A DNA stretch of 57,523 bases from Longimicrobium sp. (GTDB taxonomy: Bacteria; Gemmatimonadota; Gemmatimonadetes; Longimicrobiales; Longimicrobiaceae), in contig DASUYB010000159.1 in assembly GCA_036377595.1 (NCBI GenBank), forward strand, positions 1 through 57,523. Direction: 5' to 3'. The notes beneath the pieces were generated by a model, which did not search any database, was not told the DNA's origin, and saw only the letters and a program-made list of their open reading frames with translations. Positions 4,548 to 24,433 of the stretch are shown one piece after another (the stretch's first letter is position 1; every line of letters begins with the position of its first letter). The position numbers were made by a program, and so were the translations under genes.

Positions 4548-4790
4548 TCAGCAGTACGGATCGATGCAGGCCTGGTAGCCATTCGTCATCCGGCAGCTGG
4601 CGAAGCACGTCATGGTGTCGCGCGGGCATCCCTCCAGGCAGGTGGCGCAATTCGACATCTCGGAGCCAGCGCAACCCGCGAGCTGCGTGATGTCGTACCC
4701 CCGCACCGTGCCGACCTTCGTCTCCCCGCCATCGGCCGTCCGGAACGACTCCACGGCCAGGGTTTCTACGTTCAGGCGGATCTTGCGCAT
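4548..4790 (-). CDS. Pinensin-type Cys-rich precursor peptide 2
   Basis: An 80-aa paralogue of the peptides on each side. The leader MRKIRLNVETLAVESFRT is nearly identical, with GTVRGYD at the leader/core junction. Cysteines are at 40, 48, 51, 55, 62, 66, 75 and 80, with CATCLEGCPRDT and SCRMTNG conserved among the three. Variation is confined mostly to the segment before the second cysteine and to single core positions, as expected of a duplicated precursor array diversifying its product. Start ATG at 4790. Probable role: ribosomally made, post-translationally modified peptide; the product and its activity are unknown. Confidence 0.8.
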   Translation of the reverse strand: MRKIRLNVETLAVESFRTADGGETKVGTVRGYDITQLAGCAGSEMSNCATCLEGCPRDTMTCFASCRMTNGYQACIDPYC

Positions 4791-4834
4791 CGCGTTCGTC
4801 TCCGTGGGGAAGTGAGTGAGTTGCAGATGCCGGT

Positions 4835-5077
4835 TCAGCAGGCAGGGTCGATGCAGGCGACATCGCCGTTCGTCATCCGGCAGCTACCGTAACAGGTCAA
4901 CGTGTTCCGCGGGCAGCCCTCCAGACAGGTGGCGCAGTTGGAGTAGTACGACACGCACCCGTCGAAGTCGGTGCCGGAGTCGTGCGCGCGCACCGTTCCC
5001 ACCTTCTTCTCCGCTCCTTCCGACGTCCGGAACGACTCCACGGCCAGGTCTTCGACACTCAGGCGGATCTTGCGCAT
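4835..5077 (-). CDS. Pinensin-type Cys-rich precursor peptide 3
   Basis: An 80-aa promoter-proximal member of the three-gene array. The leader is MRKIRLSVEDLAVESFRT, and the junction GTVRAHD differs from GTVRGYD in the other two. Cysteines are at 41, 48, 51, 55, 62, 66, 75 and 80, again eight, with the core ending DPAC instead of DPYC. The frame is open upstream to 5170, but the ATG at 5077 is where the conserved leader starts. The gene faces away from precursor 4 across a 358-bp AT-richer gap that probably holds both promoters. Confidence 0.8.
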   Translation of the reverse strand: MRKIRLSVEDLAVESFRTSEGAEKKVGTVRAHDSGTDFDGCVSYYSNCATCLEGCPRNTLTCYGSCRMTNGDVACIDPAC

Positions 5078-5435
5078 CGGGGCTGATCTCCAGCGTGAGG
5101 GGAGCCCATCGCCATCGCACCGCGGATCGATGCGAGCGAGGTTTGCCCTCGTAAGATAGTCGTGGATCACTTATGACGACAGAATCAGTCGAGAATCACT
5201 TATACAGGTGCCTGAGCATTTCGTTTGATTTACTTTATGCATGGCAAGAGGATCGAAGATGCGGTATCGGCTTCCCATCTACATCCAGGGAATAATCAAG
5301 TGAATTAAGATTGCCAAGGCGTGAAAGATGCGTTGCGATCGGCCGCTCACATCCATTCGGCACCCGTCGATCTCACGAACGAGCAGGAGATGGAGATTGG
5401 TGCGTGCCGCTCACCTGTCTCGCAGCGAGGGCCGC
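5078..5435. promoter_or_regulatory. Divergent intergenic region between precursor genes
   Basis: This is a 358-bp gap between divergent precursor genes, clearly AT-richer than its surroundings (for example around 5155-5300). ATCACTTAT occurs twice in direct orientation, near 5166 and 5196. No exact promoter boxes can be assigned with confidence, but position and composition make it the likely shared control region of the two precursor transcription units. No ORF or RNA recognised. Confidence 0.4.
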
Positions 5436-5708
5436 ATGAAGAAGCTGAGGCTGGAGCTGGAAGGGCTGCGGATCGACACGTTCCAGACCGCGCCCGCCGA
5501 TCCCGACGGGAGCACGGTGCGGGGCCACGAAGCGGTGGGCACGTACGGCACGACGGACATCTGCTACTGCGCGTACCCGTCCACCAGCTGCGCGGAAGGG
5601 CAGACGGGGAGCGGCTTCAGCTGCTACTGCATGTATCCCAGGTCGGGCGAGCAGGTGTGCTGCTCGGACATCCAGCGCGGCTGCAGCGCCGCCGGCTCGA
5701 TGTGCTGA
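5436..5708 (+). CDS. Pinensin-type Cys-rich precursor peptide 4
   Basis: A 90-aa peptide with a diverged pinensin-like leader (MKKLRLELEGLRIDTFQT) and a STVRGHE junction. The core is unlike the three-gene array: nine cysteines (43, 45, 52, 63, 65, 75, 76, 83, 90) with two CYC motifs followed by a YP pair (CYCAYP and CYCMYP). The repeated CYCxYP suggests an internal duplication about 20 residues apart. The start ATG at 5436 is chosen at the leader; an upstream in-frame extension to 5328 lacks leader similarity. It is divergent from precursor 3 and convergent with the S12 hydrolase, with a strong hairpin after the stop. Confidence 0.75.
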   Translation: MKKLRLELEGLRIDTFQTAPADPDGSTVRGHEAVGTYGTTDICYCAYPSTSCAEGQTGSGFSCYCMYPRSGEQVCCSDIQRGCSAAGSMC

Positions 5709-19672: not shown

Positions 19673-19740
19673 AAGTCCTAAGTCCTGAGTCCTAAGTGCC
19701 CAGTGCCCAGTGCCCAGTGCCCAGTGCACTCAGCACTCAG
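19673..19740. repeat. AAGTCCTGAGTCCT / CAGTGCC short tandem repeat
   Basis: Tandem AAGTCCTAAGTCCTGAGTCC units run into four copies of CAGTGCC and then CACTCAG twice. A related repeat in both orientations lies at 20588-20692, so these repeats bracket the cupredoxin gene. Confidence 0.6.
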
Positions 19741-19914
19741 AGACGAGGCCATGCGCGGGCGCGTCACCGCGTGTCGCCATCCGAGAGGCAGAAGGCGCCG
19801 ATCCATTGGCGGCGCCTTCGTCCGTTCCTATATTCGTTCCGGTCTCACAGCACCCACCGTGGACGGCCGCTCGCGGCCACCTTCCGCCCTTCAGGACCCT
19901 CCCGGAGGCCGACC

Positions 19915-20583
19915 GTGCCCCGTGCCCGCTCCGCCGCGCTCCTCGCGGCCGCGTTGCTCGTTCCCGCCATCCTGGCCGCGCGCCCGCGCCCCGCGCCCTC
20001 GCTCGCGGGAACGATCGAGGGACGCGTGACCCTGTCTCCCATGGCGCAGCGCCGGGTCGCGAACCGCTACCCCGGCGAGGGCGGCGGCGCGGCGCACCAG
20101 GTGGGCGCCGTCCCGGCGGTGGCCTATCTCGTCGGCCGCGTACCCGGCGGCGGGGGGGCGCGGGGCGAGCGGCCGCGGCTGACGCAGCAGGACACCTCGT
20201 TCCGCCCGCCGGTGCTGGTCGTCCCCGTCGGCACCTCGATCGAGTTCCCCAACCGCGACCCCTTCTTCCACAACGTCTTCTCGTACTCGTCGACCAAGCG
20301 CTTCGACCTGGGCCGCTATCCGCGCGGCGAGTCGCGCACGGTGACGTTCGACCGTCCCGGCGTGGTGAAGGTGTACTGCGAGATCCACCAGTGGATGCGC
20401 TCGGCGGTGATCGTGGTGGAGAACCCGTACCACGCGCAGGTGGCAGCCGACGGGCGCTTCACCATCGACGGGGTGCCGCCGGGGCGCTACCGCCTGGCCG
20501 TGTGGGACTTCGACCGCGGCCAGCGCGTCGTCGACGTCACGATTCCCGCGTCGGGCGCCGCGCGGGTGAACGTGAATCTCTGA
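19915..20583 (+). CDS. Exported cupredoxin-domain protein
   Basis: A 222-aa blue-copper-like protein of the methylamine-utilisation/plastocyanin-like type. The signal peptide spans residues 1-22. The cupredoxin fold at about 95-170 has the type 1 copper ligands His119 (FFHNVFS) and the loop Cys155-x2-His158-x2-Met161 (YCEIHQWM), all present. A short carboxypeptidase-regulatory-like beta-sandwich (about 172-222, FTIDGVPPGRYRLAVWD) ends the protein. The start is the GTG at 19915, six bases after GGAGG; upstream in-frame ATGs lie inside the tandem repeat and give no signal peptide. Probably a periplasmic electron carrier. It precedes the cyclase-barrel gene by 146 bp. Confidence 0.82.
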   Translation: MPRARSAALLAAALLVPAILAARPRPAPSLAGTIEGRVTLSPMAQRRVANRYPGEGGGAAHQVGAVPAVAYLVGRVPGGGGARGERPRLTQQDTSFRPPVLVVPVGTSIEFPNRDPFFHNVFSYSSTKRFDLGRYPRGESRTVTFDRPGVVKVYCEIHQWMRSAVIVVENPYHAQVAADGRFTIDGVPPGRYRLAVWDFDRGQRVVDVTIPASGAARVNVNL

Positions 20584-20729: not shown

Positions 20730-23700
20730 GTGTCCCGCCCCTCCGCCCTCGACCGCATCCGCCACTCCTTCGCCGCCAAGCTGCTGCTGGCGCTCGCGGG
20801 GTCGGTGGGCGTGCTGCTGCTGGTGACCGTGATCAGCGTGCGCGTGCAGACGCGGCGGCAGGTGCGGGTGGCGGTGGAGCGCGCGCTCACCCAGTCGCGC
20901 AGCGTGTTCGCGCAGCAGGAGGGCGAGCTGCGGCAGAACCTCGAGGGCACCGCCGGGCGCTGGGTGGGCGGCAACCGCCTGGGCGCCGCGCTCGACGACG
21001 CGCTGCAGTCCGGCTCCACCGACATCCTGTCGCAGACCGCCAGCTACGAGTTCCAGCTGGCCGCCTCGCGCGACACCGTGCTGGCCGGCTTCACCGACGC
21101 GGGCGGGCGGCCCGTGGCCTCGGTGATGAACGACCGGATGCTGGCCGAGCCCGCCGCCGCCATCCCCCTCCCCCTCGTTTCCTGGCTCCTCCCCTCCGAC
21201 AGCGCCGGCGCCTTCGGCTACCACCTGGTCAACGGCCGCCTCTTCGCCGTCTACGTCACCCGCCTCCCCCTCTTCGACAACCTGGTGGGGACGCTGACGC
21301 TGGGGACGATGGTGACGGATTCCGTCGCGCGCGACGCGGGGCTGGCGCTGGGGGCCGAGGTCTGCTTCGTCGCGGGCGGCCGCTGCGTCGCCTCGTCGCG
21401 CGGGGTGCGGGGGGAGATGACGCAGCGGATGGTGGCGATGGCGGGGGTGCGCCAGCCGCGGCGCGTGAGCTGGCACGGGCGCCGCTGGGTGCTGACGGCG
21501 GATCCCGTCTCCACCGGCTCGGGGATGCAGGCGGCGTGGCGGGTGACGGCGTTCCCGCTCGACGGCGTGCTGGGCCCCTTCGAGAGCATCCAGCGCGCGG
21601 AGGTGCTGGCCGGCCTCGCGTCCATCGCGCTCGCGATCCTCGTGGGCCTGGTCCTCTCGCGCCAGTTCGCCCGGCCGGTGCGCGCGCTGGTGGCGGCCAC
21701 GGAGCGGGTGTCGGCGGGGGACTACGACGTGCGCGTGCGGGCCGAGACGCGCGACGAGCTGGGCACGCTGGCCGAGGCGTTCAACGAGATGACGCACGGG
21801 CTGATGCTCAAGGAGCGCTACCGCGGCGTGCTCGACAAGGTCGTCTCGCGCGAGATCGCCGACGAGCTGCTGAAGGGCGACATCACCCTGGGCGGCGAGA
21901 CGCGCTTCGTGGTCACCCTCTTCGCCGACGTGCGCGGGTTCACCGCGATGACGGAGGGGATGGAGCCGCAGCGCGTGATCGGCCTGCTGAACGAGGTGAT
22001 GGAGCGCGCCGCCGGCGCCGTGGAGGCCGAGGGCGGCGTGGTGGACAAGTTCGTGGGCGACGAGGTGATGGCGGTGTTCGGCGCCCCCGTCTCGTACGGC
22101 GACGACGCCGACCGCGCCGTCCGCGCCGCGCTCCGCATCGCCGGGGCGATGGAGGCGCTGAACGCCGAGCGCGCCGCCCGCGGCGAGCCCGTGGCGGGGA
22201 TGGGGATCGGGCTCAACTGCGGCCCCGCCGTCGCGGGGAACATGGGCTCGACGGGGCGGCTCAACTACACCGTGCTGGGCGAGTCCGTCAACATCGCCAG
22301 CCGCCTGTGCGACCAGGCGCGCCCGGGCGAGATCCTCGTGGTCGAGCCCTTCCTGCGCGAGCTGAAGACGCCGGTGGACGCGGTGCCGCTGGGCCCGCGC
22401 TCCTTCAAGGGGATCTCCGTCCCGCTCGAGGTCTATTCGATCCGCGGGATCAAGGGAGATGGCGACGCGCCGGGCGATTCGACCCCCGGCGCCTCCCTCC
22501 CCTCCGCGGCGACGACGATCGCCACGGCGCTGCTCGCGCTCGCGGCGATGGCAGGGCCGCTCCACGCGCAGGATCTCCCCACCCTGCAGGAGCTGGGGAT
22601 CGGGTGGACGTCGCCGGGCGGCTTCCTGCAGGTGACGCCGTCGGGGCGGCTGGAGATCGAGGGCTACGCGCCGGGGGACAACCCCGCGTGGCTGATCTCC
22701 ACCACGCGGCCGTTCGTGGCCCCGCGCGCCTCGCTGCTCGTGGACGTGTTCGCGGGCGCGCGGGTGCTGGGAAGCGTGGAACTGCGCGCCGACCGCGGCG
22801 AGGCGCCCGCCGACCGGCCGCTGCAGGTGCGCGTGGAGCAGGCGTATCTCCGCGTGACGCCCCTCTCCGGCGCGAACCTGTCGGCGCAGGCGGGAAAGTT
22901 CGTCTCGCCGTTCGGCAACTGGCCGCAGCGCCACGCCTCGCCCGCGCAGGAGGCGTTCATCCGCCCTCCCCTTCCCTACGACTACCGCACCATGATCTGC
23001 CCGTGGTTCCTCCCGGCGGGCTCGGCGGGGTTCGTCACCTGGAAGGACGCGCCCGAGCTCTTCCGCGCGATGGGCGCGCCGGTGGTGTGGAACGCGCCGT
23101 ACCAGGTGGGGGCGATGGTGAGCGGGGGATGGAAGGCGCTCGGCTTCCGCGCGGCGGTGATGAACAGCGCGCCGTCGAGCGAGCCGTCGGAGTGGAACAC
23201 CCTCGGCGCGGGCGAGCACGGACCGTCGTACGTCGCCCACGCCAGCGTGCAGGTGATCCCCGAGCTGCGGATCGGCGCGTCGTACGACCGCGGCAGCTAC
23301 CTGCAGGACGAGCTGGGCGGCGCGCCGCTCCCGCCGGGCGAGCCGATCAGCCACTACTTCCAGGAGATCTGGGGATTCGAGGCGTCGTTCGCGCGCGGCC
23401 CCGTGGAGGCGCGCGGCGAGCTGCTGCTGGACACCTGGGACGTGCCGAACGTGACCGACTATCCTCGCGACGTGTCGTTCTACGCCGAGACGAAGGTGAA
23501 GCTCACGCCCGGCCTGTTCGCCGCCGCGCGCTACAGCGGGATCCGCTTCGACCGCATCTCCGACGGCGCGGGGGGCGAGGAGCGGTGGGACTACCCCGTC
23601 GACCGCCTGCAGTTGGCCGCCGGCTACCGCCTCGGCCGCACGACCGAGGTGCGCGCCGAGTACATGCTCAACTCCACCGACGCCCCGCCCGCGGGAAACG

Positions 23701-23738
23701 ACGACCTCTTCGCCGTGCGCTGGAGCTGGCAGTTCTAG
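20730..23738 (+). CDS. Class III nucleotide cyclase fused to an outer-membrane-barrel-like domain
   Basis: A 1002-aa single reading frame. Residues 15-37 are transmembrane helix 1, about 40-285 a periplasmic sensor, 290-310 helix 2, 311-365 HAMP, and 385-570 a class III adenylate/guanylate cyclase. Metal aspartates are Asp400 (FADVRGF) and Asp444 (FVGDE), base-selecting candidates Lys440 and Thr514, and transition-state Asn521/Arg525, so the cyclase looks active. Residues 588-614 then look like a signal peptide (h-region ATTIATALLALAAMAG, site LHA/QD). The last 388 residues read as a porin-like barrel, rich in alternating strands and ending WSWQF. Such a join is unusual. A start in the other frame at 22460 and a single indel would not give two complete genes, since that alternative cyclase frame stays open to 24433. 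Confidence 0.82.
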   Translation: MSRPSALDRIRHSFAAKLLLALAGSVGVLLLVTVISVRVQTRRQVRVAVERALTQSRSVFAQQEGELRQNLEGTAGRWVGGNRLGAALDDALQSGSTDILSQTASYEFQLAASRDTVLAGFTDAGGRPVASVMNDRMLAEPAAAIPLPLVSWLLPSDSAGAFGYHLVNGRLFAVYVTRLPLFDNLVGTLTLGTMVTDSVARDAGLALGAEVCFVAGGRCVASSRGVRGEMTQRMVAMAGVRQPRRVSWHGRRWVLTADPVSTGSGMQAAWRVTAFPLDGVLGPFESIQRAEVLAGLASIALAILVGLVLSRQFARPVRALVAATERVSAGDYDVRVRAETRDELGTLAEAFNEMTHGLMLKERYRGVLDKVVSREIADELLKGDITLGGETRFVVTLFADVRGFTAMTEGMEPQRVIGLLNEVMERAAGAVEAEGGVVDKFVGDEVMAVFGAPVSYGDDADRAVRAALRIAGAMEALNAERAARGEPVAGMGIGLNCGPAVAGNMGSTGRLNYTVLGESVNIASRLCDQARPGEILVVEPFLRELKTPVDAVPLGPRSFKGISVPLEVYSIRGIKGDGDAPGDSTPGASLPSAATTIATALLALAAMAGPLHAQDLPTLQELGIGWTSPGGFLQVTPSGRLEIEGYAPGDNPAWLISTTRPFVAPRASLLVDVFAGARVLGSVELRADRGEAPADRPLQVRVEQAYLRVTPLSGANLSAQAGKFVSPFGNWPQRHASPAQEAFIRPPLPYDYRTMICPWFLPAGSAGFVTWKDAPELFRAMGAPVVWNAPYQVGAMVSGGWKALGFRAAVMNSAPSSEPSEWNTLGAGEHGPSYVAHASVQVIPELRIGASYDRGSYLQDELGGAPLPPGEPISHYFQEIWGFEASFARGPVEARGELLLDTWDVPNVTDYPRDVSFYAETKVKLTPGLFAAARYSGIRFDRISDGAGGEERWDYPVDRLQLAAGYRLGRTTEVRAEYMLNSTDAPPAGNDDLFAVRWSWQF

Positions 23739-23803: not shown

Positions 23804-23827
23804 CCACTTCAGTTCTTGGGGAGAGTG

Positions 23828-24433
23828 ATGGGAGAGAAGAAAACGACCGACGCGAAGCCCGTCTTCTTCGCCACGCCGGCGGAGTTCCGCGCGTGGCTGG
23901 AGGCGCACCACGAGACCGAGCCGGAGCTGCTGGTCGGCTTCTGGAAGAAAGGGTCGGGGAAGCCGAGCATCACCTGGCCCGAGTCGGTGGACGAGGCGCT
24001 CAGCTTCGGGTGGATCGACGGCGTGCGGCGCTCGCTGGGCGACGAGGCGTACACCATCCGCTTCACCCCACGGCGGGCGCGCAGCACCTGGAGCGGGGTG
24101 AACGTGCGCCGCATGGGCGAGCTGATCGCCGAGGGCCGCGTGCGCCCCGCGGGGATGAAGGCGTTCGAGGCGCGCAGCGCGGACAAGACCGCCATCTACG
24201 CCTACGAGCAACGCGCGCCCGACCTGACCGAGCCGTACGCCGGCGAGCTGCGCGCGAACGCGGGGGCGTGGGAGTTCTGGCAGAAGCAGGCGCCGTGGTA
24301 CCGCAAGACGGCGAGCTGGTGGATCATAAGCGCCAAGAAGGAGGAGACGCGCCAAAAGCGGCTGGCCACGCTGATCGACGACTGCGCGAACGGCCGGGTG
24401 CTGGCCGGGCTCGACCGCAAGCCGAAGAAGTAG
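23828..24433 (+). CDS. YdeI/OmpD-associated family protein
   Basis: A 201-aa soluble protein. The N-terminal region (FFATPAEFRAWLEAHHETEPELLVGFWKK in part, then ITWPESVDEALSFGWIDG) and the block RFTPRRARSTWSGVN match the YdeI/OmpD-associated family. A Lys/Arg-rich C-terminal helix bundle (AKKEETRQKRLATLIDD) completes it. Members have been linked to peptide or bacteriocin protection, but the biochemical role is not established. The ATG at 23828 follows GGGGAGAG. It is preceded by a hairpin, so it is probably a separate unit from the cyclase gene. Confidence 0.85.
   Translation: MGEKKTTDAKPVFFATPAEFRAWLEAHHETEPELLVGFWKKGSGKPSITWPESVDEALSFGWIDGVRRSLGDEAYTIRFTPRRARSTWSGVNVRRMGELIAEGRVRPAGMKAFEARSADKTAIYAYEQRAPDLTEPYAGELRANAGAWEFWQKQAPWYRKTASWWIISAKKEETRQKRLATLIDDCANGRVLAGLDRKPKK

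Follow-up and report, generated by a model that had tools for sequence, protein, structure and literature searches.

The closest precedent for the gene described here is, as far as we know, the cytochrome b/c1 polyprotein (fbcH) from Bradyrhizobium japonicum, in which an internal signal leads to export of the C-terminal part of the chain and the cut is made by signal peptidase. Bacterial polyproteins that are cut by signal peptidase are, to our knowledge, rare. Our gene, from a Longimicrobium genome, resembles fbcH in joining an inner-membrane N-terminal part, an internal signal and an exported C-terminal part, its cleavage being inferred. Whilst the two fbcH products are respiratory subunits that both remain in the inner membrane, the products here would be a receptor enzyme and a predicted outer-membrane porin. 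Two sequence features of an fbcH-type protein are present, namely a single frame in 14 genomes and an internal hydrophobic core followed by a cut-like site (A/G↓Q, with the arrow marking the predicted cut), though the -3 position of this site is Leu (L611) in our protein.

Each half also has described counterparts. Like HAMP-linked transmembrane class III adenylyl cyclases, the N-terminal part runs from a transmembrane (TM) segment through a sensor region and a second TM segment to HAMP and a cyclase with intact residues, but unlike them the protein continues into a third hydrophobic segment and a predicted exported barrel. The barrel has a 16-strand fold in common with OprP and OprO, the phosphate and pyrophosphate porins of Pseudomonas, at only 17-18% identity; OprP and OprO are made alone, whereas this porin is fused. 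A Streptomyces Rieske protein with an internal Tat signal, mentioned in a review (PMC13186574), is likewise a membrane protein whose C-terminal domain relies on an internal signal peptide for export; it differs in using the Tat route, in remaining one functional protein and in not involving the outer membrane. Our literature search found no report of a receptor-porin polyprotein.

The window analysed is a stretch of 57,523 nucleotides, contig 159 of a 7.2 Mb draft genome in 208 contigs. The features of the locus are collected in Table 1. The preliminary description of this DNA had noted one open frame throughout the gene, and this was borne out: the frame is continuous and stop-free from a GTG start, third-position GC is 0.92-1.00 on either side of the junction and through it, and a codon-usage gene caller picks the fused ORF as a single gene. 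Since a long open frame alone proves little in a genome of 71% GC, the case for fusion rests on conservation in other genomes. The same conservation decides whether two genes have merely been joined by a lost stop codon or an indel in sequencing or assembly, a concern that the fragmented state of the draft genome does raise. The fusion recurs in 13 other genomes, as the preliminary description had proposed to check, and codon usage is continuous; a frame error, including an indel near 22480, is refuted, and an artefact can for practical purposes be discounted. The frame open to 24433, first described as an alternative cyclase frame, is non-coding and merely runs into a separate OmdA/YdeI-like gene (23825-24433).

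Table 1. Coordinates of the features of the fused gene, its neighbour and the second fusion family
Feature	Position	Strand	Basis or remark
Fused gene: TM receptor, HAMP, class III cyclase, internal signal-peptide-like segment, porin; 1002 aa	20730..23738	+	
TM1, residues 14-41	20769..20852	+	hydrophobicity peak 2.63
Periplasmic sensor region, residues 42-289	20853..21596	+	position between TM1 and TM2
TM2, residues 290-314	21597..21671	+	hydrophobicity peak 2.83
HAMP, residues 308-358	21651..21803	+	PF00672 E 2e-15
Class III cyclase catalytic domain, residues 394-561	21909..22412	+	PF00211 E 1.6e-18; alignment
Variable linker, residues 571-591	22440..22502	+	length and sequence vary across relatives
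Internal signal-peptide-like segment, residues 592-614; core 597-609; predicted cut LHA613↓Q614	22503..22571	+	hydrophobicity and motif
Porin domain, residues 615-1002, then stop; 388 residues; C-terminal Phe F1002	22572..23738	+	AlphaFold2, structure match
Upstream cupredoxin-like gene (likely start 19915)	19696..20583	+	Pfam Copper-bind; CarboxypepD_reg; conserved neighbour
CHASE2-cyclase fusion	L044 5795-8578	-	contig 136 of the window genome; also L042, L043, L046

The N-terminal part has the layout of a HAMP-linked membrane receptor, with two TM segments around an extracytoplasmic region followed by HAMP. That the cyclase has TM, HAMP and all catalytic residues, as first described, is supported by the Pfam matches (67.4 bits for PF00211, Guanylate_cyc, against a cut-off of 21.9) and by an alignment in which D400, K440, D444, T514, N521 and R525 are invariant in five homologues. 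From knowledge of the family we take D400 and D444 to be the metal aspartates, K440 and T514 to serve the substrate, and N521 and R525 the transition state; the invariant K440/T514 pair fits an adenylyl rather than a guanylyl cyclase. The catalytic residue set of a class III adenylyl cyclase is thus present, with cAMP as the product an inference. The sensor region of the window protein has no match to dCache_3 (PF14827), which scores above cut-off only in one distant homologue (L109, E 7.7e-12); weak matches are confined to homologues having a kinase output. Between G000 and G003, dN/dS is 0.24-0.36 in the sensor, cyclase and porin domains.

The porin domain is placed by structure only. Searches of Pfam, NCBIfam and PDB sequences gave no match to it, a plasmid search for the porin returned nothing, and Pfam Porin_O_P is absent from the window and found in only one of 19 homologues, at E 0.07. 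An AlphaFold2 model built with 19 homologues is a 16-strand barrel (pLDDT 87.2, pTM 0.86), the pLDDT being 63 when only five homologues were supplied. Structure comparison with Foldseek and VIA-align matches this model to OprP (Z 28.1, 3.0 Å over 309 residues), OprO (27.6) and DcaP (24.7), with general porins lower at Z of about 24. The model agrees with the porin-like barrel and the aromatic C-terminal Phe of the preliminary description. Stand-alone porins of the family (L100, L101, L102, L104, L059) have a haem-c motif, CxxCH, close to their N-terminus; the fused porins lack it.

The stretch between cyclase and porin ranges from ~30 to more than 100 residues in relatives and is also strongly variable in sequence. 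All 16 fused proteins examined nevertheless contain a single short hydrophobic core and, after it, the cut-like site, which is A↓Q, in the form small-x-A↓Q, except for one G↓Q, as V-E-G↓Q, and the signal segments of stand-alone porins mostly end in A↓Q too. An internal signal-peptide-like segment with a cleavage-like LHA↓QD site had been recognized before, and both hold, the hydrophobic stretch covering residues 592-613; only the mature porin start needs correction, from residue 615 to Q614, one residue earlier. Other hydrophobic peaks in the 14 fused proteins scanned lack a cut-like motif, with the exception of TM1 of G003. Amongst 295 distinct genes at the collected loci, internal segments of this kind are restricted to two fusion families, bar three motif matches in unrelated proteins. 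Basic residues are less supportive: with 11 of the 16 fused proteins covered, no Lys or Arg was found within 15 residues before the core in the window protein, G003 and G412, which is weak for a signal peptide. Across linker and signal, dN/dS between G000 and G003 is about 1.4 over 42 poorly alignable codons, so that, as far as this comparison goes, residue identity there shows no purifying selection. In the G015 gene (L041 8665-12834 (-)) cyclase and signal segment are separated by a long linker rich in Asp, Ser and Ala (TDSADSADSADCADCAASADAPES...); elsewhere in that locus, at 4593-5561, another gene contains a similar Ser/Asp/Gly repeat.

We propose, with a probability of about 0.7, that the gene encodes a single polyprotein: the internal signal would drive export, and signal peptidase I would separate an anchored cyclase from a released porin, translocation and cleavage both being inferred. 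The N-terminal part would be an inner-membrane receptor in which TM1, the periplasmic sensor, TM2 and HAMP lead to a cytoplasmic class III adenylyl cyclase. The third hydrophobic segment would serve as an internal Sec signal that passes the C-terminal porin on to the periplasm. Cleavage at the predicted site by signal peptidase I would leave the cyclase with a stub of the signal, which anchors its C-terminus in the membrane, and would free the porin to insert into the outer membrane as an OprP/OprO-like pore. The adjoining gene would supply a periplasmic cupredoxin. No experiment stands behind the translocation, the cleavage or the localisation of the products; what the data do establish is the single-frame fusion and its retention in relatives, the domain make-up, the fold of the barrel, and the preservation of signal and cut-like site.

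The absence of any proof of cleavage leaves room for a chain that stays in one piece and tethers the inner to the outer membrane. However, the first long strand begins at residue 19 of the model, leaving ~20 residues between cut-like site and barrel; judged by the known dimensions of the Gram-negative periplasm this linker is too short, and an uncut chain could not reach the outer membrane. With the cut-like motif conserved in all fused proteins as well, we consider such a tether very improbable. The porin might alternatively be made, additionally or mainly, from an internal translation start, in which case continuity of the frame would matter little; an in-frame ATG, GTG or TTG does lie shortly before the core in G002, G015, G271, G407 and G274. 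Between cyclase domain and core there is, however, no such in-frame codon in the window, G003 or G043, the nearest possible upstream starts in the window being GTG codons within the cyclase region, and for these junctions it is therefore unlikely that a porin complete with signal is translated separately. With no stop codon in the way, translation yields the fused chain regardless, and we regard an internal start as an unlikely main or additional source of the porin.

To follow the fusion through relatives, a porin profile was searched against the order (154 genomes) and the phylum (395), and the neighbourhoods of the matches were read, with a cyclase search in addition. By sequence search the same fusion is found in G003 (82% identity), G002 (51%), G043 (50%) and G015 (47-52%). 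The order yielded 18 full-length cyclase orthologues, and 14 of these are fused in frame, in three families and down to about 50% identity (G000, G003, G002, G015, G043, G412, G168, G420, G421, G271, G423, G323, G213 and G304). This count includes G420, whose contig ends just past the junction but whose frame passes through the signal into the porin, and G421, which has one stop within the cyclase domain. A single wider contig scan gave one match, an unrelated one in Paenibacillus, and the reach of the fusion beyond this phylum is thus not covered.

The four unfused orthologues are confined to two genera. In G422 and G425 the cyclase has a convergent porin directly downstream, in G426 the cyclase is unfused and its short contig holds no porin, and in G339 the cyclase is broken by stops and the porin lies elsewhere. 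Relatives with two separate genes had been named in the preliminary description as grounds for rejecting the fusion; they exist only as this minority, two of them with a porin next door. Since these four orthologues are unfused, the fusion is not essential.

The gene upstream of the fusion encodes a predicted secreted, cupredoxin-like protein with a type-1 copper motif (HN...CEIHQWM); its Copper-bind match is above cut-off (E 5.1e-5) and its CarboxypepD_reg match just under (2e-7). A homologue adjoins the module nearly everywhere, in 21 loci, with CxxHxxM in 21/21, and this conserved neighbour makes a redox or copper theme possible. What the module as a whole detects probably comes in by way of its own pore, or depends on that pore, the response being cAMP or, in relatives, a phosphorelay; functional coupling of the parts is likewise inferred. 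Directly upstream of the cupredoxin and cyclase-porin genes of G412 lies a hybrid histidine kinase that shares the sensor region (L093 783-3026 (+)), placing cyclase and kinase outputs side by side. In G411 (L094 3-1635 (+)) the cupredoxin gene is followed directly by a porin, and the cyclase is missing.

The second fusion family consists of CHASE2, a class III cyclase, a signal-like segment (A↓Q or G↓Q) and a predicted exported domain of 235 residues that belongs to no known family. It occurs in 4 of the 154 genomes (G000, G003, G015 and G043), all of which hold the porin fusion; the chance of this is about 4e-5 if genomes are independent, which they are not. The 235-residue domain is found only in fused form in the 154 genomes, bar one weak partial match. 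The gene adjoins an M48 peptidase gene in L044 and L042.

In distant members the same sensor feeds not a cyclase but a histidine kinase (G393, G407, G192, G063) or a hybrid kinase (G274). The kinases of G407 and G274 are also fused, through a signal-like segment, to a porin of this family. In the nearest relatives, G192 and G170 respectively, the two genes are separate, and for this reason the kinase-porin fusions apparently arose independently and fusion has probably occurred at least three times. Each kinase fusion rests on one genome, and both have a possible internal start. In the porin tree the cyclase fusions require three changes, for example one gain and two losses. The unfused cyclases of G422 and G425 are sisters of the fused cyclases of G423 and G323, but their porins fall in a different clade carrying the CxxCH motif. 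This phylogenetic mismatch suggests that the fused porin was lost and that another porin of the same family was kept or acquired beside the cyclase.

A wider reading is that receptor and pore have repeatedly been made as one inner-/outer-membrane polyprotein. It would comprise at least three origins (cyclase, histidine kinase and hybrid kinase), synthesis fixed at 1:1 and the stub as a new C-terminal anchor on the enzyme, with the CHASE2-cyclase family in some of the same genomes using the same device for another exported domain. We put this forward tentatively, at somewhat less than an even chance, and the 1:1 coupling within it is inferred only. A serious possibility, if not one we would back, is that the fusion is real and cut but that a single gene adds nothing: the signal peptide makes the junction harmless, and translationally coupled neighbours in a stop-poor, GC-rich genome can lose the intervening stop without penalty. 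In the unfused relatives G192 and G393 the stop of the kinase gene already overlaps the porin start as ATGA, comparison of G274 with G170 shows a fusion in which the end of the kinase and the beginning of the porin gene have disappeared, unfused states exist, and linker identity is unconstrained. Such neutrality sits less easily with retention of the cyclase-lineage fusion across three families at about 50% identity, with unfused forms being restricted to four orthologues from two genera, in which such porins as were found belong to the distinct CxxCH type, and with the lack of unrelated internal-signal fusions among the 295 sampled genes. Whether 1:1 synthesis has been selected or fusion merely tolerated is undecided.

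Annotation pipelines may label genes of this kind merely as cyclases or kinases. If export and cleavage of the polyprotein are as we propose, the two products of one chain are predicted for different membranes, with a signalling enzyme joined to a porin. Such genes would illustrate how fused genes can come to be tolerated by means of a signal peptide, and would give a direct test of whether a receptor and its pore need to be made in equal amounts.
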